Of a DNA stretch of 23,046 nt, positions 10,729-22,825 are shown piece after piece (positions within the stretch are counted from its first letter, which is position 1; each line of letters starts with the position of its first letter). A program made the position numbers and the translations under genes. The notes under the pieces were generated by a model. The model was not told the DNA's origin. It made no database searches and saw only the letters and a program-made list of their open reading frames with translations. Source of the stretch: a virus; IMG/VR virus record IMGVR_UViG_3300030202_002856, positions 1 through 23,046 of that record. One strand, given 5' to 3'.

Positions 10729-12945
10729 TTATTTTATTATTTTAGAAGTAAAGCCATCGTTTTTATATCTAGCTATACCTAGGTTTAATTTTTGTTTTCT
10801 CCTACTAGCTGTTGGTTTGTATAAGTTTTTATTACAGGCCATTATAGCCAAACCTGAGCTTATAGAAGCATCGTGTTTTGTTCTCTTATTTATATCAAAC
10901 TTAGCCCAATCGTTTAGTGTTTCGTTAAAGTAAACGCTACCATAATTACCATTTTGCAAATGACCAACATGATCATTTATATACATTTCGATAGCGGCCG
11001 CGTGAGCTTGTTTTATGTCCTCACTAGAGTTTGGTATTCCACCCACCTCTTTTTCAGCCGTACTCAGTTTACTCCATATTTTATCTGGTCTGTTCATGCT
11101 AAAACCTCTATACCCTCTTCTTTTAAAATAATACAGAAGTCTAGGCTTATTGTTTTCCGCTAACAATGGCATTCCATAAAAAATACAAGCCATCAATACG
11201 TCTTCAAAAAATATTTCAGCGGTTTGTGGTCTAGCTATATATTCTAAAAATAATTGGTTGATTGGAGCGTTATCCATACTAAATTTAGTTAGTCCATGGA
11301 GAGATCCATTAGATCCTCTACCATCTACCGTACCACTAATATCATAGCTGTCGCACCCAAAAGCACCAATATGTTCGTTTCCAGGATATTTTATTCCATT
11401 TTTAAGTATTACTCGGTTTTGTAAATTTCTATCAGGAATCCAGCTAACTTTAAACCTACCGCTTGGATCTGGATGAAATACTACTTGAGTATCTTTAACC
11501 CCGTTCGCCCACTGAAAAGATCCTTTAGTTACAACAGATGAGTTTCTATTGCCTTCATTGTAATCAATTTGCTCGTAAATTTTTACTAAATTAAATAGAC
11601 TATTTTTTGTTTCATCTCTAAAAGCGTGCTCTGTAGTTCTTGGGAATTGACGATAAAATTCATTCAAAGCATCTTGATCTTCTTTTAAGCCTTCTACCTC
11701 GTTTTCCCAGTGATTGATAACACCTACATCTATTAATTCACCGTCTGGTCCATAAACGTCGGATACTGGAGTAGTGAATACAGGTCGTCCGTATTCGTCA
11801 ATAAATCCTTCAAAGTTCCATTCCATTGGGATAAACAAAGAATATAAACCAGATTTTGTTTGACCATTTTTATTTCTTTTATTTACATCACTGTCGTTAT
11901 ACAGTCTCTTAAAATTATCGCCACCTTTGTCGAGAGCGTTACTCGTTGAACCCATCATACACTTACCTATAATCCTACTACCTAGTCTTAAGCAAGTTTT
12001 AGTTACTCTCCAATTGTTTAATATATTATCAGGTCTTTCCCACTTACCACTTTCATCATGAACTAATAGCGCTAGTTTTTCACCATCATAACTGTTGTCT
12101 CCAGTATTCTTCCAATCAATAGTAGTATCTAAACCTTTAATCTCTTCCAACTTTTCATTGGTATCTATTTTTTTACGAGTAAACTTGCTAGCTGGAACAC
12201 GGTATGCTAATTCTGATTTCGGTCTATCCATACCGTCTTGTATTGGTTTAAAAAAGAAAGGATAGTTTATAGAAATAGGTACCACTTTATCTGTAAACAT
12301 TTTTTTCGCATCACTACCACTTTTTGATAGTATACCATATCTACTATCGCTTGAAATTGTAGCTTGATTAACTGTTTCAGCAGAAGACATAAAAGAAAAA
12401 CCAGAACGTCTGTTCTTAAGATAACACATTCCGTAGCACCTTTGATCAATTTTACAGGCCTCCCAAAAAATAAAAAATAATCTATTAGCTTCACGAAAGT
12501 CTGGAGCACCAACGTCAATCTTGCTCCATTGTAAATACATATAATGTGCACCTGTTATATAAGTTGGATCTCCATTATTGTTAAACCAAAATCCTTGCTC
12601 TCTTCTATTAAACTCTTCGTCTATATAGTCGTACCACTGTTCTTTGTTTTCTTCAGGATAAGATTTCCAATCGAATATAGTTTTTATTTTTTTAAGTATA
12701 TCAGGCTTTGTTATTTGCTTCCATTTATTATATTCATTAGAGTAAGCTTGCTTAGGGGGTTTTGGTAAAGCAATTTTAAGTCCTTGAATATCGTATATTT
12801 CACCAACTTGACCATCGCTACTAAGCACGATAAGATCGTGTTCTTTATTATAGCCTCGCTTCCACTTTTTGCTCCTATTCATTCTAGACAAAGTGGTTTT
12901 CTTTACGGGCTCAACTACACTATATAAAGTTTGTTCGTAACTCAT
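10729..12945 (-). CDS. Terminase large subunit (TerL)
   Basis: This 738-aa protein is the packaging ATPase and nuclease. The ATPase half shows a deviant Walker A at about 176-188 (LKNRRSGFSFMSS, lacking the usual GKS/T), Walker B LALLVHDES with D297 and E298, and a likely coupling motif MMGSTSNA at 330-337. The RNase H-like nuclease half shows AFGCDSYDI with D532 and the closing acidic site KHDASISSGLAI with D692. About 130 extra N-terminal residues are typical of the crAss-like/marine type I recall. The start overlaps the stop of the upstream 91-aa gene as ATGA, so the two are probably translationally coupled. The portal follows after 4 bases. Confidence is high despite the unusual P-loop. 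Confidence 0.88.
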   Translation of the reverse strand: MSYEQTLYSVVEPVKKTTLSRMNRSKKWKRGYNKEHDLIVLSSDGQVGEIYDIQGLKIALPKPPKQAYSNEYNKWKQITKPDILKKIKTIFDWKSYPEENKEQWYDYIDEEFNRREQGFWFNNNGDPTYITGAHYMYLQWSKIDVGAPDFREANRLFFIFWEACKIDQRCYGMCYLKNRRSGFSFMSSAETVNQATISSDSRYGILSKSGSDAKKMFTDKVVPISINYPFFFKPIQDGMDRPKSELAYRVPASKFTRKKIDTNEKLEEIKGLDTTIDWKNTGDNSYDGEKLALLVHDESGKWERPDNILNNWRVTKTCLRLGSRIIGKCMMGSTSNALDKGGDNFKRLYNDSDVNKRNKNGQTKSGLYSLFIPMEWNFEGFIDEYGRPVFTTPVSDVYGPDGELIDVGVINHWENEVEGLKEDQDALNEFYRQFPRTTEHAFRDETKNSLFNLVKIYEQIDYNEGNRNSSVVTKGSFQWANGVKDTQVVFHPDPSGRFKVSWIPDRNLQNRVILKNGIKYPGNEHIGAFGCDSYDISGTVDGRGSNGSLHGLTKFSMDNAPINQLFLEYIARPQTAEIFFEDVLMACIFYGMPLLAENNKPRLLYYFKRRGYRGFSMNRPDKIWSKLSTAEKEVGGIPNSSEDIKQAHAAAIEMYINDHVGHLQNGNYGSVYFNETLNDWAKFDINKRTKHDASISSGLAIMACNKNLYKPTASRRKQKLNLGIARYKNDGFTSKIIK

Positions 12946-13217
12946 TTAGATCTTCCTTCAGCAAAACCTTTAAATACACGTTCTTGCTTTTTCTCAGGTT
13001 CTTTACCGTTAAGTAAATTTTCTTCTTCTTGTATTCTGTTTAGTATCTCAAAAGCGTCAAATATAGCTAGCTTTTTAGTGGCTGCAGCATTCTTAAGTCT
13101 ATCAGCTGTAATGTCATCGCCACTATCAACTATAGCTTCTTTAGCTACTTTAATCAACTCTTCTACAGCTCTATGCCCAGCTTGGATTATACTCTTCTTC
13201 GTTTCCTTGATATTCAT
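12942..13217 (-). CDS. Small helical protein, small-terminase candidate
   Basis: This 91-aa protein is predicted to be mostly helical and lies directly upstream of TerL with an ATGA overlap (12942-12945). The helices are roughly residues 4-30 (ETKKSIIQAGHRAVEELIKV) and 38-68 (DITADRLKNAAATKKLAIFD, then EILNRIQEEEN). The tail (about 70-91) is basic. Small terminases are short, oligomerise through helices and are usually encoded just before TerL, which is the reason for the call. No clear helix-turn-helix is visible. Its first 47 bases overlap the end of the tandem-GroES gene; no later ATG exists, so the overlap appears real. It could instead be an unrelated assembly factor. Confidence 0.5.
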   Translation of the reverse strand: MNIKETKKSIIQAGHRAVEELIKVAKEAIVDSGDDITADRLKNAAATKKLAIFDAFEILNRIQEEENLLNGKEPEKKQERVFKGFAEGRSK

Positions 13218-13752
13218 ATTTTATTGTAATAAATTTAGAGTAAACTCTATATAGTCTTTCTCCATCAACGATAAACTCATATTCACTACTTGGTGTAAAG
13301 CCTACTAAATCACCAATATCTACAGTTCCATCAGATTGCTTTACAACACCTATTAGTGGCCGTTCTTTACTCTCATCAAACTTATCTATAGATTTTATAG
13401 GTTTGATAAAACAGAAGCCATCTATAGGTTTCCACTCGTTATCTCTTTTAAAAGAAAATATTTGATCTTTAGATACAAAGTATTTATTGTTTTTGAAGTA
13501 GCTTTTACTATTGCGCTCTCTACCTTTTACATCATGCCATCTTCTAAACACGTTGTGATGAACTATAACGGTATCACCAACTTTTAAATCAGACTTATTA
13601 TTAGCAGGTGTTGCTATTATTTCAGCTTCTCTGTTAACGTGTAGATGGTTGAATATTTCTGTGTTTACTATTAGACTTTTATTGTCTATGGCTATAGAGT
13701 TATTATATCTTCCACCTATGGGTTTTATGATATAATTATTTAAAGCTTTCAT
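13171..13752 (-). CDS. Tandem GroES-like (double Cpn10-fold) protein
   Basis: This 193-aa protein reads as two GroES folds in a row. Domain 1 (about 1-102) opens MKALNNYIIKPI, close to MKAINNYVVVDKI of the GroES at 18173-18430. It then has LIV at 27-29, where GroES has the IVL of its mobile loop, LKVGDTVIVHHN at 56-67 (GroES: VKVGDIVIFND), and a closing strand YFVSKDQIFSFK. Domain 2 (about 107-181) repeats this with PIDGFCFIKPI, VDIGDLVGFTP at 144-154 and GERLYRVYSKFITIKY at the end, but shows no clear IVL-type tripeptide. GroES caps GroEL; a fused pair resembles the plan of chloroplast Cpn20. It shares one base with the preceding 73-aa gene (TAATG) and sits just before the terminase genes. 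The fold assignment is motif-based; chaperonin binding is inference. Confidence 0.65.
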   Translation of the reverse strand: MKALNNYIIKPIGGRYNNSIAIDNKSLIVNTEIFNHLHVNREAEIIATPANNKSDLKVGDTVIVHHNVFRRWHDVKGRERNSKSYFKNNKYFVSKDQIFSFKRDNEWKPIDGFCFIKPIKSIDKFDESKERPLIGVVKQSDGTVDIGDLVGFTPSSEYEFIVDGERLYRVYSKFITIKYEYQGNEEEYNPSWA

Positions 13753-18172: not shown

Positions 18173-18430
18173 TTAATCTACTAGTACAATATCACTTGCT
18201 CTTATAACAAAATAAAGTTTATCTTCGTATTGAATACCGTGACCAGCGTGCTTATCGTAATGTATAACATCACCGTCTTTTACACCTTCTACTAAGTTAC
18301 CCACAGACATGACGTTTGCTTTTATATATCTATTGTCTTCGTCTAGGTCTTCTGTCATAATAAGTCCAGCAACTTTCTTCTGCTCTGTCTTTATTTTATC
18401 TACAACTACGTAATTATTGATCGCTTTCAT
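18173..18430 (-). CDS. groES: Phage GroES co-chaperonin
   Basis: This 85-aa protein is a short Cpn10. It shows the N-terminal strand MKAINNYVVVDKI and a mobile-loop region with LIM at 23-25 in the place of the GroEL-binding IVL. It continues with ANVMSVGNL (GroES: GEVLAVGNG), GVKDGDVIHYDKHAG near 49-63, and the closing KLYFVIRASDIVLVD. Bacterial GroES is about 97 aa, so the loops are shorter. It forms a seven-subunit lid on GroEL and closes the folding chamber. The start lies 17 bases inside the end of the GroEL gene, so expression is tightly linked. The order GroEL then GroES is opposite to most bacteria. The 193-aa double-GroES protein downstream has a very similar N-terminus. Confidence 0.88.
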   Translation of the reverse strand: MKAINNYVVVDKIKTEQKKVAGLIMTEDLDEDNRYIKANVMSVGNLVEGVKDGDVIHYDKHAGHGIQYEDKLYFVIRASDIVLVD

Positions 18431-19994
18431 AAGTGTCTTGTCTTGCGTTAGAGATTATACAGTCTGCAGATACTATAGTCATGACAACACTAACTGCATT
18501 TTTTAGTGCTGACTTAGTAACAAGTACAGGGTCAATAATGCCAGCTTCAACCATATTGACTGGTTCGCCTGTTACCACATCTATACCCATGCCTTTATCA
18601 GCTAATACTTTAGGTTCTAGGCCAGCATTATTCATAATGGTTTCAAAAGGTGCTTCTATAGATTTAAGTAATGTTTGCTCTCCTATTGATTCAGCAGTAA
18701 TACTTTGAGCAGCGTTAAGTAAAGCAATACCACCACCTGGCACTATACCTTCTTTGAGGGCAGCTTTTGTAGCATATATCGCGTCTTCGACCCTATCCCG
18801 CTTTTCTTTAAGTTCAACCTTAGAGTCTGCCCCAACGCGGATAATTCCAACACTACCCGATAGCATAGACAGTCTTTGCTCCAATTTCTTTTTAATATAA
18901 CCATTTTTTTCATCAGCAACTAGTTTTGATACTTGATCTATTCTTTCTTCTAAGTCTTTGTCGTCAAACTCTATTGTAGTTATAATAGTAGATTTTTCGT
19001 CAGTCACAGCTAGTTCAGCTTCACCTAAGCAATCAGGTTTCATAAGGTCTAAGTCATCACCCAGCTCTTCGTTCATTACCGTGGCACCTGTAAGTATTGC
19101 AAGATCTTCACATGTGTCTTTCTTAGTAGGACCAAACCCTGGTAGATCAATAATATTTATCTTAATGTTACCTTTAACTTTATTCATTAGTAATGCTGAC
19201 TTTACTTGCTGAGATACCGGTGCTACTAGTAATAAAGATCTGTTGTTCTTTATAACATATTCAAGTACCGTCTGTATTTTACGCACGTTAGGTATTTCAG
19301 ACATGCATATTAACACCAATGGATTTTCAAGTTCTGCTTTTTGTTTATCTACATTAGTGACAAAGTGTGTTGAGGTTAAGCCACAGTCTTTTAACTGCAC
19401 TCCATCTACAATGTCAACGTATGTTTCTTCACTTTCGGAAGTTTCCATAAGCACAACACCGTCTTTACCTACTCTTTTATAAGCTTCAGCTATTATACCA
19501 CCTAGTTCTACATCGTTATTGCACGATATAGAAGCGACATTTGATAGAGTGTCATCTGTTACGTCAATTTTTATGCTATCAAGGTATTCGTTAACACTAG
19601 ATAACGCTTTAGTAACTCCTTGTTTTATATCTCTAATTGAATTTTTGCTTAAGTCTGTAGAGTTTACTTTATTAAGTAAAGACTCAGCTAATACTGTTGC
19701 TGTAGTAGTTCCATCACCAGCTTCTCTAACGGTGTTGTTAGCGGCTTCTTTAATAAGCGTTGCGCCTAAGTTTTCTACAGGATCGTATAATACTACAGAC
19801 TCAGCTACAGTTACACCATCTTTAGTTATAACTGGTACGCCTCTGGCGTCTTCATATATCACACATTTACCTGATGCGCCAAGTGTTGACTTTACAGCTC
19901 TAGCAAGCTTTTTAACACCATCGCTAATTTTAGATTTTGCTTCTTTACCAAAGTTTAGCTCTTTGATAAGAAGACTTGGGTTGTTGTATTCCAT
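18414..19994 (-). CDS. groEL: Phage GroEL chaperonin
   Basis: This 526-aa protein is a complete group I chaperonin (E. coli GroEL is 548). ATP-site motifs are intact: STLGASGK at 36-43, TKDG at 57-60 with D59, GDGTTTATVL at 93-102, and RVEDAIYATKAAL around D404, followed by GIVPGGG. The apical domain retains PGFG near 285-288 and TGATVMNEE. The substrate-binding YLSPYF motif of E. coli reads LTSTHF at 206-211, and the Gly/Met-rich C-terminal tail is absent. The N-terminus is about 8 residues longer than in E. coli. GroES overlaps its end by 17 bases. Phage GroELs are known in a few large phages and presumably fold virion proteins. Its leader is AT-rich with no Shine-Dalgarno. Confidence 0.95.
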   Translation of the reverse strand: MEYNNPSLLIKELNFGKEAKSKISDGVKKLARAVKSTLGASGKCVIYEDARGVPVITKDGVTVAESVVLYDPVENLGATLIKEAANNTVREAGDGTTTATVLAESLLNKVNSTDLSKNSIRDIKQGVTKALSSVNEYLDSIKIDVTDDTLSNVASISCNNDVELGGIIAEAYKRVGKDGVVLMETSESEETYVDIVDGVQLKDCGLTSTHFVTNVDKQKAELENPLVLICMSEIPNVRKIQTVLEYVIKNNRSLLLVAPVSQQVKSALLMNKVKGNIKINIIDLPGFGPTKKDTCEDLAILTGATVMNEELGDDLDLMKPDCLGEAELAVTDEKSTIITTIEFDDKDLEERIDQVSKLVADEKNGYIKKKLEQRLSMLSGSVGIIRVGADSKVELKEKRDRVEDAIYATKAALKEGIVPGGGIALLNAAQSITAESIGEQTLLKSIEAPFETIMNNAGLEPKVLADKGMGIDVVTGEPVNMVEAGIIDPVLVTKSALKNAVSVVMTIVSADCIISNARQDTYESDQ

Positions 19995-20368: not shown

Positions 20369-20773
20369 TTATTTTTTATATAAGTTTTGAGCTCTACGCT
20401 TTCTTATTTCAGTATCACTTAATAGTTTACCTGTTTTTTTATCGTGTCCTGTTTTAGTATAACTTTTTTTATCTTTGCTTTTAAGCTTCATTGCAGACTT
20501 TTCTTTAAGCTTCATAGCAGCTTTTTTCATTTTTTTAGCTGAATCTTTTTTTAAGATTTTATCTTGCACTTCTTCAGGTAGCCTGTCAAAGCCTTTATTT
20601 AAATCCATTGGAGAGTCTTTCTTCAACTTCATTGGCTTTTTCATTTTCATTGGCTCTTTCATCTTCATAGGATCTTTAGCCATTTTCATAGGTTCTGCTT
20701 TTTTCATTTTCATTGATGAACCTGCTTCTTTTGCCATCTTCATAACAGATGGATTTTTCATTTTAAATGCCAT
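20369..20773 (-). CDS. Lys/Met-rich repetitive protein, histone-H1-like
   Basis: This 134-aa protein is dominated by lysine and methionine. Residues 21-52 hold four xPMK units (EPMK 27-30, DPMK 34-37, EPMK 40-43, KPMK 46-49) spaced 6-7 residues apart, then SPMD. A short ordered segment RLPEEVQDKILKKD (64-77) is followed by more KxxxMKLK units and a basic tail (IRKRRAQNLYKK). S/T/D-P-x-K units recall the minor-groove-binding SPKK repeats of histone H1. It begins MAFKMKNPS, like the 40-aa protein (MAFKMKMKS) in this cluster. A DNA-condensing role in the virion or during packaging is inference; no folded enzyme domain is present. Confidence 0.6.
   Translation of the reverse strand: MAFKMKNPSVMKMAKEAGSSMKMKKAEPMKMAKDPMKMKEPMKMKKPMKLKKDSPMDLNKGFDRLPEEVQDKILKKDSAKKMKKAAMKLKEKSAMKLKSKDKKSYTKTGHDKKTGKLLSDTEIRKRRAQNLYKK
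20624..20695 (-). repeat. 18-21 bp coding repeat (xPMK units)
   Basis: Within the Lys/Met-rich gene, residues 27-50 are encoded by four imperfect units of 18-21 bases, each containing CCTATGAAG/CCAATGAAA-type codons. The units differ at synonymous and acidic positions, so they are old or under selection for the peptide. Confidence 0.65.
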
Positions 20774-20811
20774 GTCTTAATATATTAAGTTATCGATGTT
20801 TATATTATTAC

Positions 20812-21090
20812 TTATGTTCTTGTTCCTTTACCATATTCACCGCGGTTAGCTTTAACAGACACAAACTTACCTTTACTATGGTCATAGTCTTTACCTGCTA
20901 AGCTTATGCCTTTTTTCAAGGCAGCACGTCTTAATCGTTGGTTTTCTGCTTTTTTGTTTTTACGATCATCAGTTTTTGCTGCAACTAAGTCTCTTGTTGC
21001 TTTAGCATCAGCAGCTGCTGGAGATAACACTTGCTTTTTCATAGGACAAGATCTTCTTCTTTTACCGTGCATTCGTCTTCTTCTACTCAT
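20812..21090 (-). CDS. Arg/Lys-rich protamine-like protein
   Basis: This 92-aa protein starts MSRRRRMHGKRRRSCPMKKQ, a nearly pure arginine head with one Cys, and continues with an Ala/Lys-rich helix (AAADAKATRDLVAAKTDDRK). It ends with KGKFVSVKANRGEYGKGTRT. I chose ATG at 21090 rather than one 12 bases earlier because it forms an ATGA overlap with the preceding stop and is preceded by GGAGAGAA, a rare good Shine-Dalgarno here. The arginine-rich head resembles protamines and virus core proteins that neutralise packaged DNA. The function is inferred from composition. Confidence 0.6.
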   Translation of the reverse strand: MSRRRRMHGKRRRSCPMKKQVLSPAAADAKATRDLVAAKTDDRKNKKAENQRLRRAALKKGISLAGKDYDHSKGKFVSVKANRGEYGKGTRT

Positions 21091-21365
21091 TTCTCTCCGC
21101 ACTTTTTACTAGGGTTGTTAACTTGTCTCCAATCTTCTTTTTGAAACCAATCTCTTAGTGTAGCACCTTTTTTACGAGCACCTTTGACGTTAGTCTTAGA
21201 AGATCTTTTATATTTACCTTTAGCGCCAGAAGATCTTTTAGCGCGCACAAGCTTTTCTCTTTCAGATTTGCTCATGCTACGTATTTTAGCAGCGGGTAGA
21301 CAAGTTTTAGTTGTACCACCACCTTTTTGCTTCTTTTTAAATGGATTATTTAGCTGATCGTACAT
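21087..21365 (-). CDS. Basic phage protein with DWFxKEDW motif
   Basis: This 92-aa protein starts MYDQLNNPFKKKQKGGGTTK. It then has CLPAAKIRSMSKSEREKLVR and a C-terminal TLRDWFQKEDWRQVNNPSKK ending in CGEK. The two blocks (P.AKxRSMSKSE and DWFxKEDWxQVNNPSKKCGE) are recurrent in small basic proteins of marine phages; as I recall them the order is often reversed. Two cysteines (22, 89) are present. Its N-terminal QxxNPFKK matches the 97-aa protein at 22532-22825. It follows the previous gene by 1 base and overlaps the next by 4. It is likely a structural or DNA-binding protein; no activity is known. Confidence 0.6.
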   Translation of the reverse strand: MYDQLNNPFKKKQKGGGTTKTCLPAAKIRSMSKSEREKLVRAKRSSGAKGKYKRSSKTNVKGARKKGATLRDWFQKEDWRQVNNPSKKCGEK

Positions 21366-21366
21366 A

Positions 21367-21645
21367 TTATTTCTTTTTATTTAGCCTTTTACGTACAATA
21401 TTCATAGTTGTACGCATTTTCGCAGCGTAACTAGGTTTTTTCTTGCGATTAAAAACTACTTGTTGGTTTAAACTGCTAATAATTTTTGATAAATTGCCTT
21501 TTCTTGACTTAATTAGCCAACTAGCAAGCGCAGAAGGTGATAAACTTTTAAACTTGCCTTTAGCGTCTGGCGCATCAGACTCTTTAAACTCGCCCATACG
21601 CTTCTTTTTTGGCGATCCTGTAAACGTAGAGTTTTTAACTTTCAT
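21367..21645 (-). CDS. Basic helical protein, unknown
   Basis: This 92-aa protein has a basic, disordered head (MKVKNSTFTGSPKKKRMGEF) with an SPKK unit. The conserved-looking core is LSPSALASWLIKSRKGNLSK, then IISSLNQQVVFNRKKKPSYA and MRTTMNIVRKRLNKKK. The core reads as two or three helices and could bind DNA or pair with itself. No cysteine is present, unlike most of its neighbours. Its start overlaps the PAP2 gene stop as ATGA (21642-21645), so expression is linked to the phosphatase. I cannot name a family. Confidence 0.55.
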   Translation of the reverse strand: MKVKNSTFTGSPKKKRMGEFKESDAPDAKGKFKSLSPSALASWLIKSRKGNLSKIISSLNQQVVFNRKKKPSYAAKMRTTMNIVRKRLNKKK

Positions 21646-22181
21646 TTTTTGCTTTTTAAATGCTTAAACATGTCTTTACCTACTTGCTCACCAAACTTAC
21701 TGTCTGATTTGTAGTGTGCGTGTGCTACGTTTCTACTGTAAGATATGTCTTCACCTATTTTTTTGAATGCTTTAGCGTGTTTTGGGTGCATATCAGATAA
21801 TACTTCAGCTATCATTACGCCTTGAACAGAATGTCCTGATGGATATGATGGCGTTTTCATTGAATCTAACTCTTTATCGTCAAATTTAATATTCATCTTT
21901 TTAGCTAAAACTTTAGGTCTTGGTCTGTTGTGATGTTTTTTAATTTTCATTATGATCGGTGCAGACTTTTCTATTAAGTTATCGATCATATTTTTTGGCA
22001 CATCTAGATTTTTATCGTCTATAAGCTTTTTAAACGATGCTTTAATATCATCTTTATCTTTTACAAACTTAACATTAATAGGGATTTTGTTAAGCTCTTT
22101 AATTTCTTGCATCGTAGTGAAAGAATTATCACTCGGTGGTTTCTTGTCTAAATACTTTTGTATGTTAAACTTTTTAAACAT
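21642..22181 (-). CDS. Soluble PAP2-family phosphatase
   Basis: This 179-aa protein has the complete PAP2/acid-phosphatase signature: KX6RP as K79...R86-P87, PSGH at 114-117, and SRX5HX3D as S149-R150, H156, D160. The spacing is exact, so H156 is the likely nucleophile and H117 the acid. Related enzymes remove phosphate from lipids, polyprenyl diphosphates or small phosphoesters, or act as vanadium haloperoxidases. No membrane segments or signal peptide are visible, so it is likely cytosolic or carried in the virion. The N-terminal 75 residues are Lys/Asp-rich. It sits inside a run of basic proteins (3-base gap before, ATGA overlap after). The substrate is unknown. Confidence 0.85.
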   Translation of the reverse strand: MFKKFNIQKYLDKKPPSDNSFTTMQEIKELNKIPINVKFVKDKDDIKASFKKLIDDKNLDVPKNMIDNLIEKSAPIIMKIKKHHNRPRPKVLAKKMNIKFDDKELDSMKTPSYPSGHSVQGVMIAEVLSDMHPKHAKAFKKIGEDISYSRNVAHAHYKSDSKFGEQVGKDMFKHLKSKK

Positions 22182-22184
22182 GCT

Positions 22185-22397
22185 TTATTTCTTTTTGAAA
22201 TCGCCTCTTGTACATCTTACGCCCCAACCTGAAGCATACGCTGATGGCCATACTTTAAACTTTTTTTTAGCTTGGGCTTTACAACTAGCACTAATCTTAC
22301 CTTTCATAGGAGATTCGTCTTTCATCTTCACGCCAGACATTCTTCTTCTACCGCATCCACCTTTAGGTATAGGATTACTTTTTTGTATATAAGCCAT
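22185..22397 (-). CDS. Basic protein with FKVWPSAYASGW motif (DUF5872-like)
   Basis: This 70-aa protein starts MAYIQKSNPIPKGGCGRRRM, has an ESPMK unit and ends with CKAQAKKKFKVWPSAYASGW followed by GVRCTRGDFKKK. The K.KFKV(W/Y)PSAYASGW block is a recurrent motif of small basic phage and giant-virus proteins, which I associate with DUF5872. Three cysteines are present. It lies 1 base after the 40-aa gene and 3 before the PAP2 gene. Function is unknown; a virion or DNA-binding role is inferred. Confidence 0.65.
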   Translation of the reverse strand: MAYIQKSNPIPKGGCGRRRMSGVKMKDESPMKGKISASCKAQAKKKFKVWPSAYASGWGVRCTRGDFKKK

Positions 22398-22398
22398 A

Positions 22399-22521
22399 TT
22401 ATTTCTTTTTTCTAGGTACGCAGTTTGGCACCATTCTGTTACCTTTCTTTTTCATACCTTTCTGCACGTGAGATTTCCAACATGCTTTCATAGGTGATTT
22501 CATTTTCATTTTAAATGCCAT
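22399..22521 (-). CDS. 40-aa basic protein with ACWK...VPNCVP motif
   Basis: The 40-aa protein starts MAFKMKMKSPMKACWKSHVQ and ends KKKGNRMVPNCVPRKKK. An earlier in-frame ATG would extend it by 41 residues into the preceding gene, but those residues look like out-of-frame sequence, and the MAFKM start is 10 bases after the previous stop and matches the 134-aa protein start. The ACWK.....GMKKKG..MVPNCVP pattern is one I recall from small phage and algal-virus proteins. Two cysteines could form a disulfide or bind metal. Function is unknown. Confidence 0.6.
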   Translation of the reverse strand: MAFKMKMKSPMKACWKSHVQKGMKKKGNRMVPNCVPRKKK

Positions 22522-22531
22522 ATCTATAGTT

Positions 22532-22825
22532 TTAACATTTCCATCTTCTTCTAGCTGCTTTACCTCTTTCACCAGTCCAAGACTTAGATCTAGCACAGAA
22601 CGACTTTCTACGCTTAGCAGCTTTGCTTCCAGGCTTAACATCACCTGTTACGGCAGTTTGTAGTTTGCTACCAGGATTTTTACGCTTGTATTCAGCAACA
22701 CCTTTAGCAGTCATACCAGCACCTTCTTTTACAGTACGGAAGTTACGGCCTTTACCTTTAGTAGTTTTTCTAGGTTCGCTACTTGAGCGCTTCTTAAATG
22801 GATTTAATACTTGTTCGTATGCCAT
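22532..22825 (-). CDS. Basic DUF6321-like protein, first of the cluster
   Basis: This 97-aa protein has 29 Lys/Arg against 6 acidic residues by hand count. It starts MAYEQVLNPFKKRSSSEPRK. The core is GAGMTAKGVAEYKRKNPGSK, then LQTAVTGDVKPGSKAAKRRK and SFCARS, ending ARRRWKC. I associate the GMTAKG...YKRKNPGSKLQ...RRKSFCAR...RRWKC pattern with DUF6321 proteins of marine T4-like and other phages, although the usual glycine-rich spacer differs here. It is the first gene after the 22826-23046 leader, so its promoter should drive the whole basic cluster. DNA condensation or virion incorporation is inferred. Confidence 0.65.
   Translation of the reverse strand: MAYEQVLNPFKKRSSSEPRKTTKGKGRNFRTVKEGAGMTAKGVAEYKRKNPGSKLQTAVTGDVKPGSKAAKRRKSFCARSKSWTGERGKAARRRWKC

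Follow-up and report, generated by a model that had tools for sequence, protein, structure and literature searches.

Seven GroES modules close the GroEL ring through their mobile loops. Tandem co-chaperonins, with two such modules in one chain, are known in plastids and in the malarial apicoplast, and the fit of two-module chains to a seven-fold chaperonin has been described as a symmetry dilemma; Chlamydomonas Cpn20 and/or Cpn23 form seven-module hetero-oligomers with Cpn10, and concatamers of six to eight modules work too (PMC5780408). Arabidopsis Cpn20 mutated in its N-loop is inactive alone at 37 C and active together with Cpn10(1), itself inactive, a rescue that its authors attribute to four working subunits of seven (PMC4242682). 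In the Chlamydomonas structure 7ekq (entry titled CrClpP-S2c), chain R, named 'Cpn20 co-chaperonin subunit', occurs twice, chain Q (Cpn23) once and chain P (Cpn11) once, that is, three tandems and one single, giving 1+2+2x2 = 7 modules. Phages encode Cpn10-fold co-chaperonins of their own, such as T4 gp31 and the single-domain phage GroES of phrog_3188, with one module per chain. For the Pervagoviridae, Bartlau and colleagues count a 'chaperonin cpn10' among the core genes (PMC8776804), the paper on phage Panino mentions GroEL and GroES homologues (PMC11590407), and the GroEL of phage phi38:1, as distinct from its tandem protein, is reported among methylated proteins in infected cells and free virions (PMC13288928). 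The family described below is thus already annotated, most isolate phage records naming the tandem gene cpn10 or GroES; for its tandem architecture our literature search found no paper, no title or abstract start describing a tandem phage GroES (the original Cellulophaga-phage paper lay outside this search).

The window analysed here, a stretch of 23,046 nucleotides, comes from a virus record of 23,659 bases and carries, in addition to a single-domain GroES and a GroEL, a gene for a putative two-module co-chaperonin. The features concerned are the following.

10729..12945, minus strand: terminase large subunit (TerL), phrog_6681
12942..13217, minus strand: ORF of 91 aa separating the tandem gene from TerL, from the ORF list, without a convincing family match
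13171..13752, minus strand: predicted tandem Cpn10 (GroES-like) co-chaperonin, 193 aa; PHROG, profile and structure-model matches
13444..13752, minus strand: predicted first Cpn10 module, residues 1-103; VIA-align match to 4pko_O, profile E 4.1e-5
13210..13437, minus strand: predicted second Cpn10 module, residues 106-181; VIA-align match to 8wuc_a, profile E 8.3e-10
13633..13719, minus strand: residues 12-40, putative mobile loop of the first module at full length; equated with the GroES loop by alignment and model
13666-13674, minus strand: hydrophobic tripeptide LIV in the first loop, residues 27-29; from the sequence
13348..13401, minus strand: residues 118-135, the second module's loop, shortened to 18 residues and without a hydrophobic tripeptide; by alignment
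13171..13217, minus strand: C-terminal tail of the tandem protein; the following ORF begins within this stretch, in a different frame
18173..18430, minus strand: single-domain GroES, 85 aa, loop AGLIMTED; Pfam Cpn10, 44.3 bits
18414..19994, minus strand: GroEL, 526 aa; Pfam Cpn60_TCP1, 184.5 bits

The tandem ORF reads 193 aa from an ATG on the minus strand, the plus strand in the same frame containing many stops. Together with the 91-aa ORF it precedes, on the minus strand, a structural block made up of TerL, portal and virion structural protein (PHROG assignments), and the GroES and GroEL genes lie further upstream on the same strand. The gene had been placed beside the terminase in a preliminary description of this DNA, correctly so, with one 91-aa ORF (12942-13217) intervening. 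That description had also proposed that two GroES folds are fused in this protein, and the motifs it cited are found exactly as given: the start MKALNNYIIKPI against MKAINNYVVVDKI at the start of the separate GroES, LIV at 27-29, KVGDTVIV at 57-64 and DIGDLVGF at 145-152.

Among the sequence evidence for two GroES-like halves is a PHROG search in which phrog_13932, annotated 'co-chaperonin GroES' (200 positions), matched residues 1-145 of the tandem protein (E 8.3e-22); the window's separate GroES matched positions 112-197, the second half, of the same PHROG (E 2e-8). A profile-profile comparison based on an earlier, marine-heavy alignment was weak (E 7.2e-4 and 26% probability for the first half, 2.3e-3 and 13% for the second; controls 0.04 to 0.24), for which reason a wider alignment was built. 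With this alignment, comparison with a GroES profile composed of phage, E. coli and host-type sequences took the first half to E 4.1e-5 at a probability of 70% and the second half to E 8.3e-10 at 96.5%, whereas the four controls with reversed sequences lay at E 0.068 to 0.13. Simpler searches are less telling. Pfam returned no match for the tandem protein at E up to 1, the PF00166 (Cpn10) cut-off of 21.1 bits not being reached, nor any for its homologues in phages elemo, Manatee and Panino; the same model passes on the second half of relatives from phi18:3 (32.6 bits), phi38:1 (28.2) and L103 (26.4). Of 53 tandem proteins, 11 were recognised by a GroES HMM, and the matches listed do not include the protein of the window. 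An HMM of the second half matched 24 single GroES proteins, that of the first half matched none, and a profile comparison of the two halves with each other gave no detectable sequence match (E 0.085). Searched against the sequences of solved structures, the tandem protein alone yielded nothing useful, and the family profile placed GroES (E 0.79) below an unrelated acyltransferase (0.38).

An AlphaFold2 model of the tandem protein (88 sequences in the alignment) has a pLDDT of 83.2 and a pTM of 0.75. In a Foldseek search of the PDB it comes closest to 7ekq_R (E 1e-4), with 7ekq_Q and GroES chains next in rank. With VIA-align, 7ekq_R superposes over 156 residues spanning model residues 1-180 (Z 10.0, rmsd 4.0). 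Taken by range, the first half matches GroES 4pko_O (Z 8.0, rmsd 3.7, 82 residues, model range 1-104) and the second half GroES 8wuc_a (Z 8.0, rmsd 2.0, 75 residues, model range 106-180), a Z of about 8 being at the tool's own caution line and the fold a predicted one. T4 gp31 is also among the structural matches (2cgt_O, Z 6.3), and the first non-GroES row is a dehydrogenase at Z 5.4. A model of the phi38:1 homologue (pLDDT 85.7, pTM 0.79, 31 sequences), whose least certain blocks cover both presumed mobile loops, again has 7ekq_R as its top match (Z 10.7, 167 residues over 1-194); separate GroES rows land on its second half only. Chance resemblance to GroES is ruled out by the PHROG, profile and structure matches. 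Neither half was predicted to adopt a fold other than Cpn10, and the VGD motifs fall on the GroES base strands. The proposal of two fused Cpn10 folds is supported by the structure model and by the sequence profiles of each half: on this basis the tandem protein is almost certainly two Cpn10 folds in one chain. That the closest solved structure is a Cpn20 from an entry titled CrClpP-S2c could suggest that the protein caps or inhibits a different host ring, for example ClpP, in the manner of the chloroplast Cpn11/20/23 cap in 7ekq. However, this entry probably comes first only because it holds tandem Cpn10 chains, and no other evidence found in this analysis points to ClpP; we regard such a function as highly improbable.

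The phage protein resembles chloroplast Cpn20 and Cpn23 in having two head-to-tail Cpn10 modules within about 190 residues, in a similar arrangement in the model (Z 10.0), and in being co-encoded with a single-module Cpn10. It differs from them in being phage-encoded, in the absence of a Pfam Cpn10 match in the window's protein, and in the short second loop of the window's lineage, whereas 7ekq_R and 7ekq_Q each have two stretches matching E. coli GroES. The phage tandem probably goes back to a fusion event separate from that of plastid Cpn20, which we assume here rather than read from a tree. With T4 gp31 and phrog_3188 it shares the Cpn10 fold and a phage origin but, unlike these one-module chains, it has two modules and is accompanied in the window virus by a single GroES. 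The other members of phrog_13932 (phi18:3 gp096, phi38:1 gp89 and the elemo and Panino proteins) belong to the same family, are of similar length and are likewise encoded before TerL; phi18:3 and phi38:1 keep a full-length second loop, whereas that of the window protein is shortened.

The viruses carrying this gene are a widespread and common group of aquatic bacterial viruses with cultured flavobacterial members. A scan of viral contigs found at least 599 related stretches (80 loci kept). Further scans, whose counts may overlap with this one and with each other, were seeded with MW202828 from Manatee Spring (540 stretches, 80 kept), with elemo (20) and with phi38:1 (4), and a scan seeded with the alignment (597 stretches) overlapped the first; with Panino as the seed, no relatives turned up among viral contigs. 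Among annotated phages, 77 records match, namely Flavobacterium phage elemo (68), Cellulophaga phages (7), Maribacter phage Panino and one uncultured phage. With three isolates and one uncultured phage compared in an alignment, the window protein shares 27-39% identity. A genome scan gave 22 loci, 21 of them titled MAG and one bin. A search based on TerL retrieved 87 phage records, ten of which had no tandem-protein match (eight Cellulophaga and two Tenacibaculum by host tallies). Five of these ten were identified by name. At the place of the tandem gene, phi18:3, phi46:3, phi19:3 and phi13:2 prove to carry a 200-aa 'chaperonin cpn10' too diverged for tblastn; that of phi18:3 (gp096) matches phrog_13932 with E 5e-102. 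Gundel_1, of the same TerL family, has no recognisable tandem gene before TerL and no PF00166 or PF00118 match.

Within this group the position of the gene is constant. In 191/191 distinct loci with at least 1.5 kb of downstream sequence (191 among 227 distinct loci), the start of TerL lies no more than 1.1 kb downstream of the tandem gene and on the same strand. This constancy could be taken to indicate that a GroES-fold protein has been repurposed for packaging or head assembly, for instance as a ring adaptor working with TerL, and is no longer a lid; consistent with such a role, all 208 proteins compared from the marine, Manatee and elemo types have a shortened second loop, and GroES-like domains are also found in dehydrogenases, which figure lower down in the structural comparison (Z 5.4 and below). 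Yet the hydrophobic tripeptide of the first loop is kept in 197/208 distinct sequences, the gene is found with a single GroES and usually with GroEL, and the proteins marked as structural by MS/MS in the phi18:3 stretch are gp085, 086, 087, 099 and 104, not the tandem gp096. The missing MS/MS mark is a weak sign that the tandem protein is not part of the virion, since a small protein could be missed. Altogether, we consider a role other than that of a lid improbable, and the tandem protein likely works as a chaperonin lid.

The mobile loops were compared in an aligned set of 217 distinct proteins, the second loop being counted from the P118 to the G135 column. Counted from the sequence, the loop of E. 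coli GroES has 26 residues (K13 to G38), so that the second loop of the window protein is about 8 residues shorter. Its length is 18 residues in 134/134 marine-type and 20 in 60/60 Manatee-type proteins, and 18-19 in 14/14 elemo-type proteins. Long second loops are found in phi18:3 and phi46:3 (27 residues) and in all four phi38:1-group proteins (28-29), where they contain SLIYIP, NGLRVI or GSIIVP; three consecutive hydrophobic residues occur in the second loop of 7/208 short-loop proteins, of two of the four phi38:1-group proteins and of both Pachyviridae. At the tripeptide of the first loop, at least two positions are hydrophobic in 208/208 distinct short-loop proteins, and all three (I, L, V, M, F) in 128/134 marine-, 55/60 Manatee- and 14/14 elemo-type proteins. 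The first loops of phi18:3 and phi46:3 have LHA at these columns (by eye, phi18:3 has SGLEL nearby), and Panino as aligned has FET there and a second loop of 12 residues. These comparisons suggest that the first module retains a loop of the GroEL-binding type and that the second module has lost it in the window's lineage. The earlier proposal of one binding and one non-binding half thus stands for this lineage as a reading of the sequence, with the qualification that the asymmetry is probably derived rather than general: because the second loop has its full length in the Cellulophaga relatives, the long form is probably the ancestral one and its shortening a derived loss, as judged from the alignment and not from a tree. 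Among the records examined, groups with the short loop encode a GroEL themselves, those phages without GroEL whose loop was measured have the long form, and phi38:1 combines a long second loop with its own GroEL, an apparent pattern that is suggestive.

To see how the tandem gene is accompanied, 31 chosen tandem-bearing virus records (18 including the window, and 13 more) were searched over their whole length with PF00166 and PF00118. A single GroES was present in 27/31 (14/18 and 13/13) and GroEL in 22/31 (14/18 and 8/13); five records have the tandem and a single GroES without GroEL. These records are related and fall, by our own grouping and not by a tree, into about six groups, so that they do not represent 31 independent events. 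The four records without a single GroES (those behind loci L045, L046, L065 and L075) are also without GroEL, and in them the tandem gene lies 1.2-3.3 kb from a contig end, the end towards which GroES is found in 35 sister loci, at 3.1-6.0 kb upstream. Only 2/35 sister loci are closer than the 3.3 kb available in L075, which makes a cut contig the likely, though not certain, cause in that case. All four of phi18:3, phi46:3, phi19:3 and phi13:2 have a single GroES, and none has a GroEL match.

Where the upstream flank spanned at least 5.5 kb, a single GroES was found in 35/38 marine-type loci. Two of the three exceptions (L134 and L179) have none, and the third (L009) has its GroES match within a 575-aa ORF. 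This ORF (L009:2185-3912) matches the GroES profile at a locus that also has a GroEL match, and may be a GroEL-GroES fusion or the product of a contig frameshift. The same flank search found a single GroES in 1/28 Manatee-type, 0/12 elemo-type and 0/4 phi38:1-type loci; whole records were searched because the GroES gene is farther away in whole phages of these types. The tandem gene is not adjacent to the GroES and GroEL genes, which in elemo are on opposite strands from it. Outside the 31 records are five MAG genomes, four of which were left out since bacterial GroES confuses the count. The fifth, a 1.05 Mb chromosome titled Aenigmatarchaeota, has the tandem gene and a TerL block and no detectable single GroES in the genome or in the 120 kb around the block, an exception that may reflect a faulty assembly because the phage gene order is unlike that of MW202828. 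We note that this phage block (CP070801.1, about 866-898 kb; L286, L334-L335; titled Aenigmatarchaeota archaeon) has a TerL 74% and a portal 78% identical to those of MW202828, together with a changed gene order and a partial second structural-gene match, suggestive of misassembly, misbinning or an odd integration.

The preliminary description had seen the tandem protein as a second lid beside GroES, perhaps tuned to a large capsid substrate and with its gene placed for timing. A Cpn10-type co-chaperonin it does appear to be; given the co-occurrence of tandem and single proteins and the chloroplast precedent, however, a mixed ring with the single GroES is at least as likely as a second lid. 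On balance, we lean towards a Cpn20-type co-chaperonin acting in a mixed lid as the best overall explanation. In this scheme the tandem protein would be a lid subunit of a GroEL-type folding chamber used for virion or packaging proteins, three tandems and one single GroES making up seven modules, as in chloroplasts. Because the loop of the second module is shortened in the window's lineage, the live mobile loops of this ring would number four, those of the three first modules and of the single GroES, and four is the number reported to be required for GroEL binding. The phage set has the same parts as the Arabidopsis rescue, namely a tandem, a single and one loop lacking per tandem, and a mixed lid of three plus one is therefore favoured; as the working form of the protein, this composition is plausible at a little below even chances.

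Alternatively, there may be two separate lids: a tandem homo-oligomer (a tetramer, like that of Arabidopsis Cpn20) would cap the GroEL of host or phage when late structural proteins are folded, leaving early or general folding to the single GroES. The tandem gene does lie inside the structural block, some kilobases from GroES and GroEL, and the Cpn20 tetramer is active in vitro, as concatamers of six to eight modules are with GroEL (PMC5780408, PMC4242682). With the full-length second loops of phi18:3 and phi46:3 a homo-ring would have enough loops, and the absence of a GroEL match from the four Cellulophaga phages of this kind implies use of the host GroEL. In the window's lineage, by contrast, no more than three or four loops would be live in a homo-ring that engages seven modules, and tandem and single GroES stand together in 27/31 virus records. 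We therefore prefer the mixed lid of three tandems and one GroES to two separate lids, which seem rather unlikely, and to a non-lid role, which seems more unlikely still.

The mixed ring has points against it as well. The fused-GroES study behind the figure of four subunits reportedly found that five are needed for productive folding, a number that four live loops would miss. The GroEL of the window also differs from that of E. coli at some hydrophobic apical positions (L234Q, L259K), which we count against a mixed lid. In addition, Cpn20 homo-oligomers work in vitro, so that a partner is not mandatory (PMC5780408, PMC4242682). Tentatively, and with somewhat less confidence than we give to the mixed ring itself, phages may have evolved a mixed heptameric lid separately from chloroplasts; in lineages with their own GroEL and a shortened second loop it would be asymmetric, four of its seven loops being capable of binding. 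If this is true, four loops would equal the reported minimum and give a weak, directional grip, which may suit a large capsid or packaging substrate. With one loop of the tandem shortened, a single GroES and sometimes no GroEL of their own, these phages offer a natural experiment on the number of lid contacts that a chaperonin requires. They also point to a step dependent on a chaperonin, which may belong to head or packaging assembly, in common aquatic phages.

A few further observations concern the window and its relatives. The GroEL of the window (18414-19994, minus strand) is 37% identical to that of E. coli, is without the GGM tail and keeps most of the ATP site. In E. coli numbering, 10/11 compared ATP-site positions are identical, P33 being A, and several apical and inter-ring positions differ. 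The 91-aa ORF directly before TerL occupies a position where a small terminase might sit; the annotations of elemo, phi38:1 and Panino show a longer TerL and no separate ORF at this place, suggestive of an N-terminal fusion. The conserved C-terminal tail of the tandem protein (YEYQGNEEEYNPSWA) was considered as a functional motif and set aside because it overlaps the start of this ORF. After removal of 7 loci with variant tails, of repeats and of cut ends, 148 loci left 121 distinct marine loci, in 112 of which the ATG of the 91-aa ORF is kept; in the tail region the third-position entropy drops from 0.89 to 0.48 bits, and variation is lower in all three codon positions. Finally, the minus strand of the window carries at 20369-22825 a run of small, very basic ORFs rich in lysine and methionine, e.g. 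MAFKMKNPSVMKMAKEAG...
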